From the IMG/VR virus record IMGVR_UViG_3300035670_009638, positions 1-64,000 of that record: a DNA stretch of 64,000 nt; one strand, given 5' to 3'. The DNA is from a virus. Under the pieces are notes generated by a model that made no database searches, had not been told where the DNA came from, and was given only the letters and a program-made list of their open reading frames with translations. Positions within the stretch are counted from its first letter, which is position 1; every line of letters starts with the position of its first letter. The position numbers and the translations under genes are program-made. Shown here in pieces: positions 1 to 57,366 of this stretch.

Positions 1-18
1 TTTTTCTTGTTTACTCAT
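1..18 (-). CDS. Start of a minus-strand gene leaving the window
   Basis: Only the first six codons (M-S-K-Q-E-K) are inside the window. They are preceded by a clear ribosome site (CTGGAGG, minus sense) and a promoter with the same leader layout as other minus-strand operons here. The product cannot be named. Confidence 0.6.
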
Positions 19-64
19 TTTTAATTACCTCCAGTAGTTTGAGTTTTATATCTCTCTAATTATT

Positions 65-93
65 ATATTAACATAATTTGGAAATTCCGTACA
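65..93 (-). promoter_or_regulatory. Sigma-A-like promoter of the gene at the left edge
   Basis: Minus sense TGTACG, 17 bases, TAATAT with a TG one base before the -10. The transcript would start with the AGAGAGATATAAA leader that also follows several other host-type promoters in the window. Confidence 0.55.
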
Positions 94-112
94 TATATAT
101 TTTCAGAATTTT

Positions 113-149
113 GTAAAAAAAAAAAAAATGACTGGATTAACTCCAGTCT
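113..149 (-). terminator. Intrinsic terminator
   Basis: GACTGGA / TCCAGTC stem with a five-base loop followed by a long run of T on the minus strand. It directly follows, and slightly overlaps, the stop of the 50-residue membrane gene. Confidence 0.85.
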
Positions 150-300
150 ATAAAAGTAAGAATGTTGCAGCCAAAGATAAAATTGATGTGATTAGTACAG
201 CTACATAAGAACCTTGTCTTGGGCGATCTCTTTCTCCAACTGAAGCTATACTAAAAAAGAGAATAACAATCATCATTAGAACTTGGTAAGCTATTAACAT
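148..300 (-). CDS. Small two-helix membrane protein (50 aa)
   Basis: Family not recognised. Residues 2-19 (rich in L, I, V, M, F) and about 32-50 form two hydrophobic segments separated by a charged turn, S-V-G-E-R-D-R-P-R-Q-G, so a helical hairpin in the host membrane is likely. A strong GGAGGAAAC ribosome site lies at the right spacing before the ATG, and an intrinsic terminator follows the stop, both of which support a real gene. It sits just downstream of the 92-residue gene and probably shares its transcript. The role is unknown; small membrane proteins of this kind in phages include holin-like and superinfection-exclusion proteins, but nothing here selects one of these. Confidence 0.7.
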   Translation of the reverse strand: MLIAYQVLMMIVILFFSIASVGERDRPRQGSYVAVLITSILSLAATFLLL

Positions 301-312
301 AAGTTTCCTCCT

Positions 313-591
313 TTAAGCTAATGCAGCTCTTTTTTCTATTGCTATTGGATTTCTTTCTCTGTTACGTTTAATAATAGTTTTCAAAATCCATTTTCCATTA
401 TCATTAACAAAGATGAATTCTTTGCTATTAAAAGTAAATACATGACGAGTGTTTCCAACATTTACGATTTGTTTAACCTTAGTAAAGTGTAAATCTTTCT
501 TAATTCGTTTTACAATCTCTTTTTCCGAGGCTCCAATTCTTTGTTTATAGCGTTCTTTGATGTGATTAGTAATAATGAAATCTTCAAACAT
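313..591 (-). CDS. Hypothetical 92-aa basic protein
   Basis: Family not recognised with confidence. The protein begins M-F-E-D-F-I-I-T-N-H-I-K-E-R-Y-K-Q-R-I-G and continues with a basic helix (E-K-E-I-V-K-R-I-K-K) and beta-like stretches; the tail is basic. The pattern helix, H-x-x-E-R-Y-x-x-R, then strands ending in F-I-F-V-N-D-N-G-K-W resembles small BrnT/RelE-type or phage KTSC-like folds, but that is only an impression. A longer ORF begins 18 codons upstream, but the start used here has a GGAGGG site eight bases before it, and a promoter whose start point would fall near base 646 leaves no room for the longer form. Confidence 0.65.
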   Translation of the reverse strand: MFEDFIITNHIKERYKQRIGASEKEIVKRIKKDLHFTKVKQIVNVGNTRHVFTFNSKEFIFVNDNGKWILKTIIKRNRERNPIAIEKRAALA

Positions 592-653
592 GTTACTCCC
601 TCCGATTTTAGATTTTTGTAGTTGAGAATGAGTTCTATTACTCATTTGATATA

Positions 654-681
654 TTTATATCTGATAGATTTAAAACGTAAA
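654..681 (-). promoter_or_regulatory. N16-type phage promoter
   Basis: Minus sense TTTACGTTTT, then CAGA and TATAAA, with exactly 16 bases between the TTTACG and TATAAA hexamers. It sits about 60 bases before the start of the 92-residue gene. Confidence 0.75.
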
Positions 682-689
682 TCATTTTT

Positions 690-1160
690 TAACAAAATAT
701 TCAGAACTTTTATGATAACGAACAACCTGTCGGTTGATTCGTAGTTCGAATTGCTATCGCAATTCTCACTAACTATTAATTTATCTCTATTAATTATATT
801 ATTTAATTTTTTATTTAATTCCTTATTTAATAATTTATTTAAAACTATAAATACCATTGTACAATTCGTAAGTTTCCAAATGGAGATAAATGATAGTATA
901 CTTACGACCTCAACTATCAACCTCTGATTCAGTTCTCCCCCAATGTTGATTAAGATGTTAATTCATCAAGGCTCAAACATTAAAAGCCATGACAACGGAT
1001 AACTTATTAATTGATTGCAAGATAATAATAAGGTTGGTTATTATCGATCAATTAATATATCCATCGATTGAGTTTTATAGCATCGGCATCAATTAACCTT
1101 GGAGTTATTTGATAATGGAGTATAACTCTCAGCTTCTAATATCTCCGATATATTCTCTTT
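690..1160 (-). ncRNA. Candidate structured non-coding RNA
   Basis: No convincing gene is visible in this stretch, yet an N16-type promoter points into it from 1167-1194. It carries many perfect short inverted repeats: AACC/GGTT (about 724-735), ATTCG/CGAAT (about 738-751), a seven-pair GAATTGC/GCAATTC stem with a TATC loop, GGCT/AGCC (about 970-988) and a long two-part hairpin at 1005-1057 with 11 and 8 perfect pairs. An ORF across 642-920 exists, but its only ribosome-site match touches the start and a promoter lies inside it. The RNA call is an inference from promoter plus structure; it could instead be a DNA site such as a centromere or packaging region. Confidence 0.35.
800..843. repeat. 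Four TATTTAAT repeats with 12-bp period
   Basis: TATTTAAT occurs at 800, 812 and 824 and TATTTAAA at 836, each 8-bp unit separated by 4 bp of varying sequence. The strict 12-bp spacing puts all copies on one helical face, as in binding arrays for ribbon-helix-helix proteins or iterons. Confidence 0.6.
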
Positions 1161-1166
1161 GATATA

Positions 1167-1194
1167 TTTATATCTGTTCGTTTGGAAACGTAAA
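1167..1194 (-). promoter_or_regulatory. N16-type phage promoter facing a gene-free stretch
   Basis: Minus sense TTTACGTTTCC...ACAGATATAAATA, 16-base spacer. No start codon with a ribosome site follows for nearly 500 bases, so it would make a non-coding RNA or a very long leader. Confidence 0.7.
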
Positions 1195-1262
1195 TGAGAT
1201 AAGGTAATACCGCCTATACTATATGGAGCTATGCAGAAAATAAGGAGCAGAAAAAAATTGCG

Positions 1263-1303
1263 AACAGTTATAACTGTTATGAGGGAATATATAACTGTTA
1301 TAT
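1263..1303. promoter_or_regulatory. Two palindromes of the AACNGTT-ATAAC type
   Basis: AACAGTTATAACTGTT is a perfect 16-bp palindrome, and ATATAAC-T-GTTATAT (1289-1303) is a second with perfect 7-bp arms. The same GTTATAAC core recurs around the RacA-like gene at 60.5 kb and at 53.7 kb, so they are candidate binding sites for that protein. Confidence 0.5.
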
Positions 1304-1418
1304 CTGAAGATAACTATATGTAAATAAGAGATAAAAAATAAATAATAGACTGATATTTTTTATCAGATGTTTTAATAGATAGGGCGTATATTTATGGCTG
1401 CTATTATTTATGACTAAA

Positions 1419-1443
1419 CAGATTTTTTATCTGCATTTTTTAT
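1419..1443 (+). terminator. Possible short terminator
   Basis: CAGAT-TTTTT-ATCTG followed by CATTTTTTATT on the plus strand. The stem is only five pairs and no plus-strand gene lies upstream, so it may be coincidence in AT-rich DNA. Confidence 0.25.
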
Positions 1444-1961
1444 TGTGATGATCAGCTTATTTATCATCGAGTTTATCAGAAGTTTATGAGTAGATTTATG
1501 CAATGTTTTAAGGCTGTTATTATTCGAATAGCACAGCAGTTTAATCTGATAGTTGTATCTGCTGTTATAGAAGATGTAATAGAAGTTATAAAGCTTTTAT
1601 AAAATAGTTTATATACAGTGTTATAAGGAAGATTAATATGATGTTATAAGAGATTAATAGAGATGAATTGGGGATGATTAATACACAGTACATACAAGAA
1701 GATAGCATCGATGATGTATGAGAAGATGAATGAAGATGTTTAATTAGTTTAGTGTGGATGAACGAGGTGATGATGAAAGGAGTTTGATATCGAGTTGATA
1801 CGAGATTGTAAGAGATTGTTTAATGTGAGTGGGGTAGAATCTTGGTTTGAGTCCAAAGTACCCGCCTACCTTTTAGAACAAAAAGCCTCTCTATACCAAA
1901 ATAACGAGGGGCGGGGCGCTTTTTCTGACGGGACCAAAACTCCAAAACACCGTTGAAATAC

Positions 1962-1990
1962 AAAAGGCACATGCTAGACAGCATGCACCT
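1962..1990 (-). terminator. Intrinsic terminator
   Basis: Minus sense GGTGCATGCT / AGCATGTGCC stem (two wobble pairs) with a short loop, then TTTTG. The arm overlaps the TAG stop of the 111-residue gene. Confidence 0.65.
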
Positions 1991-2324
1991 ATCTTCTTGA
2001 AAATATTCTTTTAATGAAAGACTTCTTCTCAAACTTTTTGTATTGGTTAACAAAGTCTTCTGATGCAGGTTTTCCTTTGTAAAATAATTGGCCATTCTTA
2101 ATCTCTGCTTTCTCAATTATTTTTTTATGGTTGCTGAACATCAGATCTTCTTTTTCATCTTCATCATCTGAGTAACATATAAACTCAACTAGTTGAACTC
2201 CTCTTGAAGAATTAACATATACCAAATCGCCATAGAGTAAATCTGGAACCGTATTTAAGTAAGTATATGATTTTGTATATTTACCATTCTCTTCTTTAAA
2301 CCTTACATATGCGAATTTTTCCAT
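1989..2324 (-). CDS. Hypothetical 111-aa protein
   Basis: Family not recognised. It starts M-E-K-F-A-Y-V-R-F-K-E-E-N-G-K-Y-T-K-S-Y-T-Y, alternates beta-like strands (Y-G-D-L-V-Y-V; V-Q-L-V-E-F-I-C-Y) with an acidic patch (S-D-D-E-D-E-K-E-D), and ends in a very basic tail K-K-S-F-I-K-R-I-F-S-R-R. An ORF continues 21 codons upstream, but a GGAGGTAGTGAA ribosome site marks this start. It is the second gene of a two-gene operon whose first gene (2368-2583) has a paralogue beyond the integrase. A host-takeover role is possible from size and position but is not shown. Confidence 0.7.
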   Translation of the reverse strand: MEKFAYVRFKEENGKYTKSYTYLNTVPDLLYGDLVYVNSSRGVQLVEFICYSDDEDEKEDLMFSNHKKIIEKAEIKNGQLFYKGKPASEDFVNQYKKFEKKSFIKRIFSRR

Positions 2325-2367
2325 TTCACTACCTCCAAACAAAATCCCAGAGCTTATGCTCCAGGAT

Positions 2368-2583
2368 TTAATAACCAAATTTTTCATTTATCTCTTCAAC
2401 GAAATCCCAATCAATATTTCCTTCGTGATTATATTGAATCAATTCATATCCATGTTCATCTCTGAAAAAGTATATTTCTTTTCCTTTATATTCACTCACT
2501 TTTTTCAAAACCATTTTCTCAGTTTCATATTCTCCGTTGTTTAACTCAGCAAAAATTACATCATATTCATTACTAATTTTCAT
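2368..2583 (-). CDS. Small acidic protein with Y-N-H-E-G-x-x-D-W motif
   Basis: 71 residues, function unknown. The C-terminal half carries G-K-E-I-Y-F-F-R-D-E and Y-N-H-E-G-N-I-D-W-D-F. The protein at 30182-30424 has the same features in the same order (G-K-E-I-Y-I-F-E-N-E, then Y-N-H-E-G-S-V-D-W-N-F), so they are clearly paralogues. The start follows CTGGAGGAATTAAA, and a host-type promoter lies about 60 bases upstream, making this the first gene of a short minus-strand operon that diverges from the late region. Aromatic and acidic surface residues fit a small regulator or inhibitor, but this is a guess. Confidence 0.75.
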   Translation of the reverse strand: MKISNEYDVIFAELNNGEYETEKMVLKKVSEYKGKEIYFFRDEHGYELIQYNHEGNIDWDFVEEINEKFGY

Positions 2584-2640
2584 TTTAATTCCTCCAGTAG
2601 TTAAGTTTTGAGAGTTCTCTTTATATATCTCTCTATTAAT

Positions 2641-2669
2641 ATAATATCAAATATGGAAGAAAAAGTAAA
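2641..2669 (-). promoter_or_regulatory. Sigma-A-like promoter
   Basis: Minus sense TTTACT, 17 bases, TATTAT, followed by an AGAGAGATATATAAAG leader and a CTACTGGAGG ribosome site. It diverges from the late promoter only about 40 bp away. Confidence 0.65.
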
Positions 2670-2706
2670 CAGAAATTGCAAAAATTTGTAACTTTTTGTC
2701 GAATTT

Positions 2707-2734
2707 TGTCTAGTAATTGGAAGATACATATATA
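2707..2734 (+). promoter_or_regulatory. Late promoter candidate, copy 1
   Basis: TGTCTA, 16 bases containing AATTGGAAG, then TATATA, with a second TGTC eleven bases upstream. The same arrangement precedes the tail-tip gene at 18139 and is not seen elsewhere in the window. It lies directly before the head operon. Confidence 0.55.
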
Positions 2735-2806
2735 TTAATTAGAGAGCTGTGAGAGGCAGTAGTTCGAGAGATTGAGCTTTCATTACTTTGAAAGAAGGAG
2801 ATTATA

Positions 2807-2971
2807 ATGAAGGACAATCGAACTGGTCAAATCTGCGAAAATTGTTGCTCTCACATTATCACATACCGAGAAGACAATAAGATTATTGTTGAATGCTCTT
2901 ATTGTGGTTTAGTACCGGAAAACATTAATCCTCGGTTTATTGATTTAGAGGATGATGAATATGAGCAGTAA
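2807..2971 (+). CDS. Small zinc-ribbon protein (54 aa)
   Basis: A 54-residue protein with two cysteine pairs, I-C-E-N-C-C near residues 9-14 and E-C-S-Y-C-G near 29-34, spaced as in a zinc ribbon, followed by an acidic tail (L-E-D-D-E-Y-E-Q). It has a good GAAGGAG ribosome site and is the first gene after the late promoter candidate; its end overlaps the HNH gene, so the two are translationally coupled. Zinc-ribbon peptides of this type bind nucleic acid or partner proteins. A role with the HNH nuclease in packaging, or as a late transcription factor, is inferred only from position. Confidence 0.75.
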   Translation: MKDNRTGQICENCCSHIITYREDNKIIVECSYCGLVPENINPRFIDLEDDEYEQ

Positions 2972-3371
2972 AAAGAAAATATGTTCTTGTGGAAGAATGA
3001 TTAGTTTTACTGAAACTTGTTCATGCAAGAAAAACCAAAATAGAAATGCATATCAAAAACAATATTATAAAAAGAATAAAGAAATTTTAAAACCATTATC
3101 ATCTACTAGGTGGAGAAAACTTAGATCTTTAATTATTAAAAGAGACAAAGGTTTATGTCAAAGATGTTTAATCAAGTATGGAATTCTTAATGGTGACAAC
3201 CTGCAAGTTCATCATATTAAACCAAGAATTGAATATCCTGAGCTGATGTTTGAAGAAAGCAATCTTATAACTCTTTGTCAGACATGTAACTTACAGCTTG
3301 GAACCAATGAAAAATTAGACTTCAAACCTAACATAGAATTAGATGATTATGATTTTGATTATAAACTCTAG
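2961..3371 (+). CDS. HNH endonuclease of the packaging module
   Basis: The C-terminal half shows an HNH nuclease: zinc-binding C-Q-R-C, the catalytic strand V-H-H-I-K-P, then N-L-I-T-L-C-Q-T-C-N. The N-terminal part adds another cysteine cluster (C-S-C-G, C-S-C-K-K). HNH proteins encoded beside the small terminase gene, such as HK97 gp74, are known to stimulate terminase cleavage at cohesive ends, so this phage probably cuts DNA at cos-type sites. The start chosen is the third ATG (first residues M-S-S-K-K-K), nine bases after AGAGG; an ATG three codons upstream is the alternative. It overlaps the zinc-ribbon gene. Confidence 0.88.
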   Translation: MSSKKKICSCGRMISFTETCSCKKNQNRNAYQKQYYKKNKEILKPLSSTRWRKLRSLIIKRDKGLCQRCLIKYGILNGDNLQVHHIKPRIEYPELMFEESNLITLCQTCNLQLGTNEKLDFKPNIELDDYDFDYKL

Positions 3372-3383
3372 GAGGTTGAAAAA

Positions 3384-3875
3384 ATGGCTAGACCAAGAAA
3401 ACCTGCTAGTTTAAAAAAAGGTAAATCTGAAACAAAAGCTCAATTGGAAATTAGAGCAGAACAAGAAGAAAAGTTGAAAGGTAACACAGATTTGTTTAAA
3501 GATGTTCCTGAACATCTTGATGAACTAGCTCAAGAGTATTACAAGTTCCTTGTTACCGAACTTGAAATTAGTGATATTCTCTCTAATCTCGACATTCCTC
3601 TTCTCGAACAAACTGCTGATTGTTTAAGTAAAATGAGACAAGCTGATGAAATTATTAATGAAGAAGGTATCATAATCAAACAAATTGACCGTTATGGTCA
3701 TGAAATGACTAAAGAGCACCCAGCTGTTGGGACTAAACAAAAGTATCTTAATCAATTTAGAGCTTTATCAACTCAGCTTGGATTAAGTCCAGCATCTCGT
3801 GCTCAATTGGCTGGTATGCAAATTGAGAAGAAAGAGGAAGAAGAAGATCCATTACTAAAAATTCTTAAAGGATAA
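3384..3875 (+). CDS. terS: Terminase small subunit (P27 family)
   Basis: 163 residues. It begins with the basic proline-rich stretch M-A-R-P-R-K-P typical of P27-type small terminases, has a helical middle (residues about 40-110) and the conserved region H-P-A-V-G-T-K-Q-K-Y-L-N-Q-F-R-A-L, then L-G-L-S-P-A-S-R and an acidic end. The small subunit recognises phage DNA and regulates the ATPase of the large subunit. It follows AGGAGGTTGAAAA and lies between the HNH nuclease and the large subunit, the standard order in HK97-like phages. Unusually, a terminator hairpin and a tRNA separate it from terL. Confidence 0.9.
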   Translation: MARPRKPASLKKGKSETKAQLEIRAEQEEKLKGNTDLFKDVPEHLDELAQEYYKFLVTELEISDILSNLDIPLLEQTADCLSKMRQADEIINEEGIIIKQIDRYGHEMTKEHPAVGTKQKYLNQFRALSTQLGLSPASRAQLAGMQIEKKEEEEDPLLKILKG

Positions 3876-3878
3876 TTT

Positions 3879-3919
3879 GGCTCCTGTCGTTTTCTCCGAT
3901 TGGCGACTTGAGCCTTTTT
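3879..3919 (+). terminator. Terminator hairpin between terS and the tRNA
   Basis: GGCTC...GAGCC with an inner GTCG/CGAC, then TTTTT. Because the tRNA and terL lie immediately downstream with no obvious new promoter, it probably gives partial termination or marks an RNA-processing point. Confidence 0.7.
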
Positions 3920-3924
3920 AATTT

Positions 3925-4002
3925 ATCAGAGTAAAGATAATTGGATAATCGCCTGGTCTCCAAAACCATGGTACGTTGGTTCGATTCCAACCTCTGGTGC
4001 CA
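3925..4002 (+). tRNA. tRNA-Trp, anticodon CCA
   Basis: The seven-pair acceptor stem is ATCAGAG / CTCTGGT (one G-U), with G discriminator and an encoded CCA end. The T-arm GTTGG-TTCGATT-CCAAC is perfect. The anticodon loop C-T-CCA-A-A sits on a CTGGT/ACCAT stem with one mismatch, and the variable loop has five bases. The D-stem is short (GAT/ATC), which is the weakest point. The anticodon reads UGG, not a stop codon. It lies on the coding strand within the packaging operon, so it is probably made with late mRNA. Confidence 0.85.
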
Positions 4003-4027
4003 AATATAAAGTACTGAAGGTGATGAT

Positions 4028-5725
4028 ATGGTTTCTTCTTATGTACAGGAACATGCTGCTTACCAGTATGCTGTGCAGGTAACAGAGAAGCAAATCATCG
4101 CTGGTAAGTATGTTATAAAAGCATGTCAACAATTTTTAGATGAACTTAATAATCCTGATTCTAAATATTTCATCGATGAAGATGAAATGAAAAAAATTAC
4201 TAACCTAACAAAGTTGATTAACATGGCTACTGGTCTTAAAGCTGGTACTCCAACTCATGATGCTTTAGCTCCTTTCCAGTGGTTCTTCTTGGTTAATGCG
4301 CTTTGTTGGAAACATAAAGACATACCTGAAAAGAGACGATTTGAAAAATCAGTCCTTCTAATTGCTCGTAAATCAGGTAAATCATTCTTAGTTGCATTAA
4401 TTTTCATTATTCTACTTTTAATTGAACCTGAATTCTCAGAGTTCTATTCTGTTGCTCCAGACCGTGAGTTATCTTCTATTGTTAAGAAAGAAGTTGAACA
4501 AGCTATTTCAGCATCCCCTCTTATTCAAAAATATTTCCAAGTTACAAGAGGAGAAATTAGATGCTTGCTAACTAAATCCAAGTTTGTACCATTAGCAAAC
4601 TCTGATAACCGTATGGATGGTCGTAAAGCAAACGTGTTTGTTGCCGATGAAGTTGGTGCATTGAGAAACCGTTATCCAATTGACTCGATGCAATCATCTC
4701 AAATGAACATGGTTAACCGTACTGGTATTTTGATTAGTACTGCTTATGAATCTCTTAATAACCCAATGACCGAAGAAGTTGAATATGCTCAGAAAGTTTT
4801 AGATGGAGTTATTGGAGATGATGCTCTATTTGCTTTGCTTTATAAACCAGACGATCCTAAAGATTGGTTATCTGATAGATCTCTATTAGAAGCCAATCCA
4901 TTAGCAATAGATATACCTGATAACCTTGAATATTTAAAGAAACAAAGAGCAACAGCTTTAGAGTTATCTAGTGCTAAAAAGAACTTCTTGACTAAACATA
5001 TGAACATCTTCGTTGATGGAGATGAAGCTGAAGTTTATATTCCAACTGATGAACTTAAAAAATGTATGATTGAAGATTATGATTGGACAGGTCGAGAAGT
5101 TTATGTTGGTGTCGACTTATCTCAAACTACCGACAATACAGCAATTTCAATGGTAACTTATGATATTGAAAAAGATGAATATGTTGCTCAATCATGGGCT
5201 TTTATCCCAGAAGATAATGCAGCTAATAAAAGTAAAATTGAACGTGTTGATTACTTCACTATGAGAGACAATGGTTATTGTTTCTTCTGTGGAGATAAAG
5301 TTATTAGTTATAGTTTCGTTGAAAATTTTGTTTTAAGTCTTGAAGAAAAGTTCGGTGTGAAAATTAAAGGAATTGGTTATGACCGTTATAACGCTATCTC
5401 TTCTGCCAACAGATGGTATGAAGCTGGTTATGACACAATTGAAATTAGACAGCATTCCTCAGTTCTCCACCCTGCTACAAAGCTTGTAAAAGAGAGAGTC
5501 TTAAAACAAAGCTTCAAATATATTAAAAACCAACTATTAGAAATCAACTTTTCCAATGCTAGAGAAGTTAAAGATACAAATCTCAATACCTATGTAAATA
5601 AGAAAAAATCCATAGGGAAAATAGATATGGTCGTTTCTATCCTAAATGCTATGGTCTTATGGAATAAAGATGTTGAAGAAGGTTTAGTTAGTGTTTATGA
5701 AGAACGAGATATCATCATTATTTAA
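4028..5725 (+). CDS. terL: Terminase large subunit
   Basis: 565 residues, normal length for HK97-type large terminases. The ATPase half has a Walker A variant A-R-K-S-G-K-S (113-119) and Walker B V-F-V-A-D-E (203-208) with its catalytic glutamate. The nuclease half begins with Y-V-G-V-D-L-S-Q-T-T-D (about 359-369), whose first aspartate is a metal ligand of the RNase H-like fold; K-I-D-M-V-V-S near the C-terminus probably gives another. The motor pumps DNA into the prohead through the portal and cuts the concatemer. The ATG follows AAGGTGATGAT shortly after the tRNA. Confidence 0.95.
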   Translation: MVSSYVQEHAAYQYAVQVTEKQIIAGKYVIKACQQFLDELNNPDSKYFIDEDEMKKITNLTKLINMATGLKAGTPTHDALAPFQWFFLVNALCWKHKDIPEKRRFEKSVLLIARKSGKSFLVALIFIILLLIEPEFSEFYSVAPDRELSSIVKKEVEQAISASPLIQKYFQVTRGEIRCLLTKSKFVPLANSDNRMDGRKANVFVADEVGALRNRYPIDSMQSSQMNMVNRTGILISTAYESLNNPMTEEVEYAQKVLDGVIGDDALFALLYKPDDPKDWLSDRSLLEANPLAIDIPDNLEYLKKQRATALELSSAKKNFLTKHMNIFVDGDEAEVYIPTDELKKCMIEDYDWTGREVYVGVDLSQTTDNTAISMVTYDIEKDEYVAQSWAFIPEDNAANKSKIERVDYFTMRDNGYCFFCGDKVISYSFVENFVLSLEEKFGVKIKGIGYDRYNAISSANRWYEAGYDTIEIRQHSSVLHPATKLVKERVLKQSFKYIKNQLLEINFSNAREVKDTNLNTYVNKKKSIGKIDMVVSILNAMVLWNKDVEEGLVSVYEERDIIII

Positions 5726-12128: not shown

Positions 12129-13174
12129 ATGCTAGAAAAGGAAATAATTGAAATATTAACGAGTGAAAAAGACAAAACTATTATTGTAAATGGAAAACCA
12201 TTAACAGTATATAAATGTGATAGTTTTAAAGAAAACGTTTTATATTGCTGTTATATGCCGTCAAAGAAAATTGCCTATTTTGGAATAACAAATGATTTTC
12301 CTAGAAGAGACTTAAAACTCATCTTACAGAATTAAAGTTTGATGAAAAAAGAAATAAAAAAGGAAAAAGGACATTTTGGCAAAATTGCTATAATAAATAT
12401 GGAGAGCAATCATTTGAGTGGTATATTGTATATCAGAATAATGATTATAAAAAATTAGGTATAATAGAAAAATTTATTATTAATTACTATGATACCTATA
12501 TGAATAAAGGACAAGGATTCAATATCTCTGAAGGTGGATTTGGTGGAAATACTAAAGCTGGCTACACTGAAGAAGAACTAAACTCTTTTAAAGAAAAGTC
12601 ATCAAAACTAAAATCGCCTGAAATTATGGGTATTGAGAATTATAACAAATGGCGGAAGAGAATTTCCAAATCTCAAAAAGGAAAGAAGCTCTCGGATGAA
12701 ATTAAGAAAAAACAGTCTAAAGCCCTTAAAGGGAGAGTATTTTCTTTAGAGCATAGAAGAAAAATAGGAGAAAAAAATAAAGGAAAACAGCATTCAGAAG
12801 AATTTAGACAGAATCTTTCCAAAATAATGAAAGAAAAATATTCTAATGGAAAAGCTCCGTTTACTGGAAAACATCATACAGAAGAAAACAAAAAAAGATT
12901 ATCGGAAATTAGAAAAGAAAAATATACTGGAAAAAATCATCCAAGTTGTATTCCGATAGTTGTTATTAAAGACAATGAAGTTAAAGAGTTTTCCTACATA
13001 AACGAAGCAGCAACCTATTTTTTAGATAAAATTGATTTAAGCTTTGAATCAATTAGAAAAGGATTTGCTAAAATGTGTAAAGGTACATGGTCACCACCTA
13101 AAACAAGTAAACTTTATGGTTATTCTGCTATGTATCTAGAAGATTATAAAAAGTTAAATAAAAGACAAGCTTAA
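12129..13174 (+). pseudogene. Frameshifted GIY-YIG homing endonuclease
   Basis: The first frame gives V-L-Y-C-C-Y-M-P-S-K-K and Y-F-G-I-T-N-D-F-P-R-R, a GIY-YIG core, but ends in a stop at 12333-12335. A second frame continues from about base 12305: K-R-L-K-T-H-L, then the catalytic-glutamate region I-I-E-K-F-I-I-N-Y-Y-D-T, N-K-G-Q-G-F-N-I-S-E-G-G and a string of NUMOD3 DNA-binding repeats (for example G-K-K-L-S-D-E-I-K-K). An extra GA in the run AGAAGAGACTT would explain the break; removing it restores one ORF of about 347 residues. The gene lies between the tail tube and the chaperones with its own promoter and terminator. It is either dead, frameshift-translated or affected by a sequencing error. 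Confidence 0.85.
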
Positions 13175-44709: not shown

Positions 44710-45306
44710 TTAGGCGATCTCTAGATATTGTTCGGCAACTACTTTTTGTAATTTCTTCTTAAGTTTATTCACTCTTTGGTTGGCAGCCTGACGAGTGATA
44801 CCATATTTATCAGCGTAATTTTGAACTGAGAAGGATTTTTTGTCGAGGATAACTTTTAGGAGATCTTCTTCTCCAGGTTCAATGCTTTCTTGAATGATGG
44901 CAGTCAATTCTTTGAAAGCAAGGTTGTCCATTGAGTTGTCATCTGTTGCGAACATATCTTCAAGTTTGAGATCGTCGTCTCCAACAGGAGCGTTCATTGA
45001 AACTGTAACACCTTGATTTTTCAAGGAGTATTTATGGTAAGTGGCGTTTCTTACACCTTTTTGAAGTTTGTAATATAGATAAGTTGTGAAGCAATTTCCC
45101 TGAGTTGGTTCATATTGCTCATATGCTCTCCATAATTCTAAATCAAGTTCTTGTCTAAAATCTTCTTCTTCTACTGCGTTGAAGATAAACTTGTTGTTTG
45201 CTCTCTTCATAGCTTTAATGACCATTGGAGTAAATTGTTCTCTTACTTCTTCAAAAGTCATTTCCTTGCTAGTGTTATCAGAAAATAAGATTGTCTTTGT
45301 CATCAT
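44710..45306 (-). CDS. RNA polymerase sigma factor (sigma-70 family, group 3/4-like)
   Basis: 198 residues. Residues about 45-95 (E-E-E-D-F-R-Q-E-L-D-L-E-L-W-R-A-Y-E-Q-Y ... C-F-T-T-Y-L-Y-Y-K-L) match sigma region 2, which binds core polymerase and the -10 element. An acidic linker follows, and residues about 155-190 (V-Q-N-Y-A-D-K-Y-G-I-T-R-Q-A-A-N-Q-R-V-N-K-L) form the region-4 helix-turn-helix for the -35. It probably directs phage transcription; either the N16-type or the late promoter family could be its target. Its own promoter is N16-type, so it may amplify itself. GAGGAG lies nine bases before the ATG. Confidence 0.88.
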   Translation of the reverse strand: MMTKTILFSDNTSKEMTFEEVREQFTPMVIKAMKRANNKFIFNAVEEEDFRQELDLELWRAYEQYEPTQGNCFTTYLYYKLQKGVRNATYHKYSLKNQGVTVSMNAPVGDDDLKLEDMFATDDNSMDNLAFKELTAIIQESIEPGEEDLLKVILDKKSFSVQNYADKYGITRQAANQRVNKLKKKLQKVVAEQYLEIA

Positions 45307-52789: not shown

Positions 52790-52814
52790 AAAAAAAATAG
52801 AGCACTAGGCTCTA
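52790..52814 (-). terminator. Intrinsic terminator after the GIY-YIG gene
   Basis: Minus sense TAGAGC-CTAGT-GCTCTA, then TTTTTTTT. The stop codon of the upstream gene lies in the loop, and the dnaE promoter begins just beyond. Confidence 0.88.
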
Positions 52815-53596
52815 TAAGAAAACAATTTTCCTTTAAATGGTTTATCATTTGTGGCACTAAACTTAATACCTTGATGACCAATACCAGTCGCCTCAACTGC
52901 GTGCTTAACAGATGGAAATTCATCTATAACTTCTTTTGTGACTGGGTCTAATAATTGAACTACCTTTCTTCTTGGTGAAGGCTTTCCGAACATTCCATTT
53001 CCTTTCCCAGAATTCACTTTTGAAATTCGTTCTTTGGCTTCTTCAGAATGGTTCTTACCAAGGAATGCTAGTTTAGTTTTAGCTCTAGCTTCATCTGATA
53101 ATTTTCTTCCAGTAAGTTTTCTTCTCATCTTTTCTTTTGCTGCTGGAGGCATCGGAACTCCTTTGTTTGCTGGTTGAACCCCAATACGAGCCTTACTCAT
53201 CTTTAACCTTGACTGTTTAGAATGAGTCTTACCAAACATTGGAGCGTTCTCTCCTACTCTTATTTCTCTCATTACTTTAGCAAGCTTTTCTCTTGTTTCT
53301 TCTGTGTGATGGTAACCAGTAATCCCTTCTCCACCATCAGTCATATTCGAAAGTTTAAATCCAAATTCATCTTTATATACAGCAATATAGTAAACTTCGT
53401 ATTCAAGAGCTTCTTCCTCAGTAAGACCTTCATGAAGAATAACAACAGCAACATTCTCGAATCCAAGTTTCTTAATTATATTGTTGAAGTACCTGTTTCT
53501 GCAAGGATAGTATGCTCTTCCTCCCTGACCTTTACCAACATAGAAAGGTTCGTTTGTATCTAATCTAATCCATTCATAAACATAAAAATCATTCAT
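52805..53596 (-). CDS. GIY-YIG homing endonuclease with NUMOD3 and NUMOD1 modules
   Basis: 263 residues, apparently intact. GIY core: F-Y-V-Y-E-W (4-9) and P-F-Y-V-G-K-G (17-23) with a following arginine; E-Y-E-V-Y-Y-I-A-V-Y likely holds the catalytic glutamate. From about 95 to 200 come NUMOD3 repeats (G-R-K-L-S-D-E-A-R-A-K, G-K-N-H-S-E-E-A-K-E-R), and the end (V-V-Q-L-L-D-P-V-T-K-E-V-I-D-E-F-P-S-V) is an IENR1/NUMOD1 helix. It would cut an allele lacking the insertion and spread by repair. It sits upstream of dnaE, with its own promoter and terminator. Confidence 0.9.
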   Translation of the reverse strand: MNDFYVYEWIRLDTNEPFYVGKGQGGRAYYPCRNRYFNNIIKKLGFENVAVVILHEGLTEEEALEYEVYYIAVYKDEFGFKLSNMTDGGEGITGYHHTEETREKLAKVMREIRVGENAPMFGKTHSKQSRLKMSKARIGVQPANKGVPMPPAAKEKMRRKLTGRKLSDEARAKTKLAFLGKNHSEEAKERISKVNSGKGNGMFGKPSPRRKVVQLLDPVTKEVIDEFPSVKHAVEATGIGHQGIKFSATNDKPFKGKLFSYRA

Positions 53597-55889: not shown

Positions 55890-56338
55890 ATCATCTCATC
55901 CATTGCTTTATTTGCTAATTCATCTGCTCTCTCATTTCCAGGTTCACCGGAATGGCCTTTGACTTTAGTGAATTGGATAAATGCAAACTTATTAATCAAA
56001 TCAATAAGTTCAATCCACAATTCTCTGTTTTCAACTGGAGTTTTAGCTGATGTAACCCATCCATTATTCATCCATTTGACATACCATTTTTGGTTGATGC
56101 AATTACATACATAAGCTGAATCAGTTCGTACTTCAACAGGGATATTAAACTTTTTCATAGCTCTGAGGCCTTCAATAGCAGCTTTTAATTCCATTTGATT
56201 ATTAGTTACATTTCTAAAACCTTGATACAATTCTTTGGTGTGTTCTCCGTATTGAAGAACAACACCATAACCTCCAATTGAATTAGTTTTACTATTACCT
56301 CTCGAACCGCCATCAACGTAAATTACAACTCTACTCAT
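55886..56338 (-). CDS. rnhA: Ribonuclease HI
   Basis: 150 residues, normal length. Catalytic carboxylates: D9 (V-D-G-G-S-R-G-N), E50 (Q-M-E-L), D73 (R-T-D-S-A-Y-V) and D139 (R-A-D-E-L-A-N), with the K-G-H-S loop histidine H129. It degrades RNA in RNA-DNA hybrids, removing primers made by the phage primase. Its start overlaps the stop of the GIY-YIG/kinase gene (TAATG), preceded by AAGGAGGAATTCTTTA. Confidence 0.95.
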   Translation of the reverse strand: MSRVVIYVDGGSRGNSKTNSIGGYGVVLQYGEHTKELYQGFRNVTNNQMELKAAIEGLRAMKKFNIPVEVRTDSAYVCNCINQKWYVKWMNNGWVTSAKTPVENRELWIELIDLINKFAFIQFTKVKGHSGEPGNERADELANKAMDEMI

Positions 56339-57366
56339 TAAAGAATTCCTCCTTCAATAAGTTCTTTAACAATTTCTGAAACGTGTTTCTCGGTTGTATC
56401 AATTTTGATTTTGTTTTTATATGCAGAATTATCAAAGTAAAATTCCATAACTGCTTTATGATAATCAAAATCTAGTATTTCATGGTTTGTTTCAATACAT
56501 CTTCTTTCTAATTCTTCTGTCGAGCAATCAATATAAATTGCTAAAACACAATCTGATTTTGCAAGTTGGATTTCCATTTCCTTATAAGTTTCTTTTAGAT
56601 CGTCGCTTTTTTCAAAAATATCACAATATGCTTGGAAAGATTCGGGTCCTCTATCCATTGTCATATGTTTATATTTTGTTTGTTTATCAATTTCATTGAT
56701 TAATGTATCTTTACCAGCTCGATCTACAGCAGAAATAACAATTATTTTTGGAGAAGACTCAAGAATATATTCCATTCTAATTCCTTCCAAATGTTTATAT
56801 TTTGAATAAGGAGTTTTATAAGGTTCTCCAGTTCTTAATAGTTCTTTTACTTTTCCTGAACTTAGTCCAAAATTTTCTTTAAAGTATTTGTAAGCTTCTC
56901 CAACAAAATTAAAGAAAATTTGTTTCCCATCAGGCATTATAAGTTTGCATTTCCTTCTTGATGGAGAGGGTTTGCCATACATTCCATTGTTTTTTCCTAA
57001 AACTCTTTCTTTCTGTTCATCTGACCATTTATTTCCGTAATTTGGATTATCTTGTCCCTTATACATTTCAGAGAATTCAATTCTTGTTTTCTCTGAAATT
57101 CTTTCTCCTTCTTTTTTATTAAATCTGGCTTCACCTAAATTATGGTATCTTTTTGTAAGTATTTCTTCGTATTTAAAAGCTATCATCTTATCATCAAATT
57201 CTTTTACAATTTCAATATCAACACTTTCTTTAAGGTAAGGTCGTTGGTGCCAATCGCCATATGCTCTACCACCAGAACCTTTACCAACATAAAGAACTTC
57301 TCCAGTTTCTTTATCTTTGTGGATATAAACATAATGTTTAGTAGTAATTGAGATTTGTTTAGTCAT
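56338..57366 (-). CDS. GIY-YIG endonuclease fused to a nucleotide kinase
   Basis: 342 residues in one frame. Residues 10-80 are GIY-YIG (H-Y-V-Y-I-H; V-L-Y-V-G-K-G; glutamate in F-K-Y-E-E-I-L). Residues about 100-195 have NUMOD3-like G-K-N-N-G-M-Y-G-K-P and a NUMOD1-like helix. From about 206 a P-loop kinase follows: I-I-V-I-S-A-V-D-R-A-G-K-D-T with Walker A at 212-221, M-D-R-G-P-E-S and a lid E-L-E-R-R-C, resembling thymidylate or other dNMP kinases. M198 has AAGGA six bases before it, so the kinase (145 aa) may also be made alone. It looks like a homing gene that landed at the kinase start. N16-type promoter upstream. Confidence 0.85.
   Translation of the reverse strand: MTKQISITTKHYVYIHKDKETGEVLYVGKGSGGRAYGDWHQRPYLKESVDIEIVKEFDDKMIAFKYEEILTKRYHNLGEARFNKKEGERISEKTRIEFSEMYKGQDNPNYGNKWSDEQKERVLGKNNGMYGKPSPSRRKCKLIMPDGKQIFFNFVGEAYKYFKENFGLSSGKVKELLRTGEPYKTPYSKYKHLEGIRMEYILESSPKIIVISAVDRAGKDTLINEIDKQTKYKHMTMDRGPESFQAYCDIFEKSDDLKETYKEMEIQLAKSDCVLAIYIDCSTEELERRCIETNHEILDFDYHKAVMEFYFDNSAYKNKIKIDTTEKHVSEIVKELIEGGIL

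Follow-up and report, generated by a model that had tools for sequence, protein, structure and literature searches.

A conserved, structured phage RNA matching no Rfam family, encoded behind a SigN-type promoter and shared with the Bacillus subtilis plasmid pBS32

What is encoded in a 1.4-kb interval that contains no gene, in a phage genome otherwise packed with them? The interval (592-1988) lies in the window analyzed here, a 64,000-nt stretch (positions 1 to 64,000) of the 82.5-kb virus record IMGVR_UViG_3300035670_009638. The closest GenBank relative is Geobacillus phage GR1 (OK896991.1), on which no paper was found. The terminase/portal block runs rightward from about 3.4 kb, and a replication block (primase-like protein, DNA polymerase, topoisomerase, actin-like protein) runs leftward. 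An earlier note, made from the sequence alone, proposed that the interval may encode a large structured RNA or be a centromere, origin or packaging region.

The absence of genes was confirmed. The flanking genes start at 591 (-) and end at 1989 (-), the ORFs between them are short and none is credible, and GR1 has none annotated there. The stem-loops (including the largest, at 1005-1057), the 12-bp period array and the GC-rich spot at 1880-1920 described in the note are present. The note's promoters, however, were wrong, as sigma-A type sites are not above chance (19 found, 22 expected in 1-4200). Folding exceeds chance for 718-1152 (z -3.7 on the minus strand) and, in single-sequence folding, for the minus strand of 1205-1850 (z -3.5, 20 shuffles), but this second part is conserved only in GR1 (as is the stretch 1205-1500). 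We identified a structured RNA on the minus strand in the left half of the interval. The note's RNA interpretation is supported, although its boundaries were too wide. The features are listed in Table 1.

Table 1. Features of the intergenic interval and the sigma factor gene, in window coordinates.
Position	Strand	Feature	Basis
718..1161	-	Structured noncoding RNA, about 444 nt	Conserved in phages, plasmids and islands; 5' end inferred by alignment with the Rend-seq-mapped PzpbP start site of pBS32 (PMC6751061, Table 2); 3' end inferred from the last conserved hairpin
1168..1195	-	SigN-type promoter of the RNA (ATTTACGTTTCCAAACGAACAGATATAA)	Matches SigN promoters of pBS32
1298..1325	-	Second, upstream SigN-type promoter; could give a longer 5' leader	Pattern scan; similar site in L011
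655..682	-	SigN-type promoter of the next gene (313-591), separate from the RNA	Same position as the predicted PzpbQ of pBS32
1102..1128	-	Helix P2, between the near-invariant GAAGCUGAG and CCAAGG	Two double changes in L024
1067..1093	-	Helix P3	All 5 pairs show double changes
994..1065	-	Helix P4 (P4a, P4b, P4c); its core is the largest stem-loop
942..991	-	P6 helix with P5 hairpin (loop AAUURA in all but L024); possible extra helix (GGC/GCC) that would make another pseudoknot and competes with P1
866..938	-	3' pseudoknot: P9 and P8 crossed by P7	All three helices carry double changes
856..865	-	Palindrome AUUGUACAAU followed by GG; candidate dimerisation site	Palindromic with a different sequence in each of 7 lineages
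766..855	-	A/T-rich linker (contains the 12-bp period array, 790-842)
718..765	-	Two 3' hairpins with 4-nt loops	Sequence varies, hairpins stay (different 3' part in the islands)
1850..1960		Separate GC-rich conserved DNA element next to the HNH/terminase block, not part of the RNA; candidate packaging (cos) site	Conserved in the window, GR1, L011, L027 and pBS32; not found in L014, L024 or the islands
44710..45306	-	SigN-like sigma factor gene that probably reads these promoters	63% identical to the pBS32 sigma factor, 94% to that of GR1 (197-aa protein, 44710-45303); sigma factor PHROG

The stretch below the 1195 promoter is conserved in GR1, in several IMG/VR phage contigs and, unexpectedly, in 36 plasmids of B. 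subtilis (pBS32 type; 78% identity over 89% of the RNA). One IMG/VR contig (L031) is itself of pBS32 type, as it carries the published zpbP and zpbQ promoters letter for letter. A covariance model (R1) scores the window at 340.8 bits and pBS32 at 269.4 bits, although both (pBS32 as L031) are in the model's own alignment. Using this model, we identified homologues that are not in the alignment: a distant phage homologue (L024, E about 1e-10), in which the RNA is turned round relative to terminase, and homologues of 144-149 bits in 3 of 38 genomes of one Bacilli order. A further such homologue was found in IMG/VR (L120, 143.8 bits).

The homologues in the Bacilli order and L120 are in island-like elements of about 13 kb (such as L108, L109, L110 and L120). 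In these, the RNA sits between a RepA_N-type replication gene and genes for portal, protease-capsid fusion and tail protein, with an integrase at one end and varied, partly defence-related genes (type IIG restriction enzyme, AbiJ, methyltransferase) at the other. No terminase or sigma factor gene was seen in the stretches read. The islands look like satellites of SigN phages, although this is inferred.

Searches beyond these relatives yielded little. Rfam covariance searches at gathering and relaxed thresholds gave only chance hits, with no match to GOLLD or ROOL at the gathering threshold or at E up to 10, and none for the relatives. In DNA pattern scans of viral contigs the real hits were the known relatives plus L120. 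The remaining hits lie in other, mostly coding, sequence, and those put to the model fail it (one, L059, was rejected by eye and by its ORF). A phylum-wide genome search gave one weak hit (L113, 23 bits), rejected as coding sequence. None was found in the order of Kurthia. The RNA was also not found in Enterococcus and Staphylococcus phages with more distant SigN homologues, so it is not needed by every SigN phage.

On a sequence-based alignment of seven relatives, a structure of 11 helices, including a pseudoknot, has 95.2% of cells paired and 30 of 71 pairs with changes on both sides, and 0 of 500 shuffles are as high. Sliding the partner strands drops pairing to 33-52%. The structure was partly derived from these sequences, so the slide control flatters it. 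However, the distant sequences, which were not used to draw it, keep helices P2 to P6 with new double changes (strands matched by hand). The number of independent lineages is small (about 8). The consensus folds at -101 kcal/mol, against -58 (sd 6) for shuffled columns. G-U cells outnumber A-C cells 30 to 6, as expected if the minus strand is the RNA. The 5' part (GAAGCUGAG...CCAAGG) is nearly invariant, whereas details of the center are unsettled, as P1 and the alternative GGC/GCC helix share bases. The 3' pseudoknot is clear in the phages and pBS32 and partly remodelled in the islands.

Intriguingly, right after P7 (in the islands, further downstream) and just before a conserved (U)GG, each lineage carries a different but perfect palindrome of 8-10 nt: AUUGUACAAU, AAUGCAUU, AGUAUAUACU, AGUAAUUACU, AUAGCUAU, UUGUAUACAA and CUAGCUAG. 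A shuffle test over six lineages gives a joint chance of about 1.6e-9, although the palindromes were noticed by eye before they were tested. A hairpin would not need a palindromic loop, but pairing between two copies would, and the same argument was used for symmetric kissing loops in OLE and GOLLD (PMC12286853). The main alternative is that the palindrome serves a dimeric DNA-binding protein, but such a protein would have to change its site sequence in every lineage. In the absence of biochemical evidence of dimers, we infer that the RNA probably self-associates.

A pattern based on published SigN promoters (ATTTACGTTT...CAGATATAAAT; PMC6751061, Table 2) finds 13 sites in the window, 12 on the minus strand, against 0.2 expected from shuffled sequence, and three of these lie in the interval. 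A SigN-type promoter is directly upstream of the RNA in the window, GR1, L011, L027, pBS32 and the islands, but the site is weaker in L014 and none was found in L024. By the strict pattern, the islands' only SigN promoters drive the RNA. However, a near-match (TTTACG...TGATATAA) precedes the next island gene (seen in L106), so we do not claim this. In pBS32, the 41-nt promoter reported as zpbP (CTACCAATTTACGTTTCACCATTCTCAGATATAAATATATT), mapped by Rend-seq from -40 to +1 and raised 158-fold by SigN (PMC6751061), lies directly upstream of the homologous RNA, with its +1 about 29 nt before GAAGC. The predicted zpbQ promoter lies just after the RNA. Thus, transcription is shown for the pBS32 homologue, where zpbP is listed as an unknown gene, whereas dependence on SigN in the window rests on the promoter match. 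No ORF within the RNA is shared by relatives, so zpbP is better read as an RNA gene.

We conclude, with good confidence, that the locus encodes a noncoding, structured RNA of about 440 nt on the minus strand, probably expressed at lytic induction when the phage's SigN-type sigma factor is made. The SigN regulon (nucleotide synthesis, DNA polymerase, exonuclease; PMC6751061) places the RNA in the replication and takeover phase. Self-association through the palindrome, as a homodimer or larger oligomer, is probable, and action in trans, on an unknown target, is somewhat more likely than not. More tentatively, the RNA may form homo-oligomeric particles needed in the lytic program, and satellite islands may have copied it with its promoter so that a helper phage's SigN switches it on.

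The most serious alternative, although we consider it unlikely, is a lytic origin RNA. SigN-driven transcription would open or prime a second replication origin, in the manner of ColE1 RNA II, with the A/T-rich linker as the unwinding element. SigN triggers pBS32 hyperreplication by an unknown route that does not raise repN (PMC6751061), the RNA lies between leftward and rightward gene blocks (in the islands, next to the RepA_N gene), and the islands keep their own copy, as a cis element would require. However, similar A/T-rich 12-bp repeats follow SigN promoters of ordinary genes, a primer does not need a variable palindrome or a pseudoknot, and the GC skew follows gene strand and so does not point to an origin. 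A cis-acting leader (riboswitch or attenuator) of gene 313-591 is improbable. The RNA is on the same strand and directly upstream of that gene in the phages and pBS32, but the gene has its own SigN-type promoter, the mapped pBS32 transcript is listed as zpbP alone, and the downstream genes differ in L024 and in the islands while the RNA is kept.

It is also very doubtful that the locus is a DNA-level element (centromere, origin or packaging site) that merely looks like RNA structure. Palindromes, A/T repeats, the nearby terminase and the separate GC-rich element in the same gap could suggest this, but the G-U bias, the crossing helices, the promoter and the mapped transcript of the homologue argue against it, as do the flipped orientation relative to terminase in L024 and the lack of a terminase gene in the island stretches read. 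Least likely is a small protein gene. The published promoter table names the transcript after a gene zpbP, but, besides the lack of a shared ORF, the longest pBS32 ORF found inside is 34 aa and current plasmid records annotate none.

Large structured phage RNAs are rare and their functions unknown. The closest known system is the zpbP transcript of pBS32 (B. subtilis NCIB 3610), which is homologous, with the same promoter type, RNA fold, neighbor gene and nearby terminase block. It has been described only as a transcript of an unknown gene, and its RNA nature, fold and relatives are not reported in the parts of the two SigN papers that we consulted. This plasmid provides a tractable setting, as the promoter, inducer and public Rend-seq data already exist, and the RNA is a candidate for the unexplained SigN-dependent hyperreplication. 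GOLLD and ROOL are also large structured phage RNAs, with self-complementary contact sites (only inferred for the RNA described here) and, in ROOL, a variable linker, and GOLLD rises during lysis (PMC12286853), but the RNA described here is shorter and has a different fold. In OLE RNA, palindromic tetranucleotide covariation supports a dimer (PMC12286853), but there is no Rfam match. There is likewise no Rfam match to phi29 pRNA, from which the RNA also differs in its SigN (early/replication) timing and its presence in islands without a terminase gene in view.

The note's alternative of a packaging region may apply to the separate GC-rich element (CCGCCTAC, an A-run, AATAAC, a G-rich run, CCAAAA, GTTGAAA), which is a candidate only. 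pBS32 shares the terminase block arrangement, the sigma factor and this RNA with the isolated phage GR1 (window 3-8 kb and 44.7 kb; L111; OK896991.1), which supports the idea that pBS32 is a plasmid prophage. The start of the circular GR1 record falls inside the interval, at window 1306/1307, but this may be arbitrary. A repeated palindromic motif, TATAACTGTTAT, at 1269-1310 just by the upstream SigN-type promoter, with similar copies in L011, is a possible operator. Between the small and large terminase genes, an Rfam tRNA match at 3927-3996 is just above threshold (29.7 bits), but ARAGORN finds no tRNA. Several ORFs that look homing-endonuclease-like by sequence (12500-13174, 52805-53596 and 56338-57366) sit among the phage genes.
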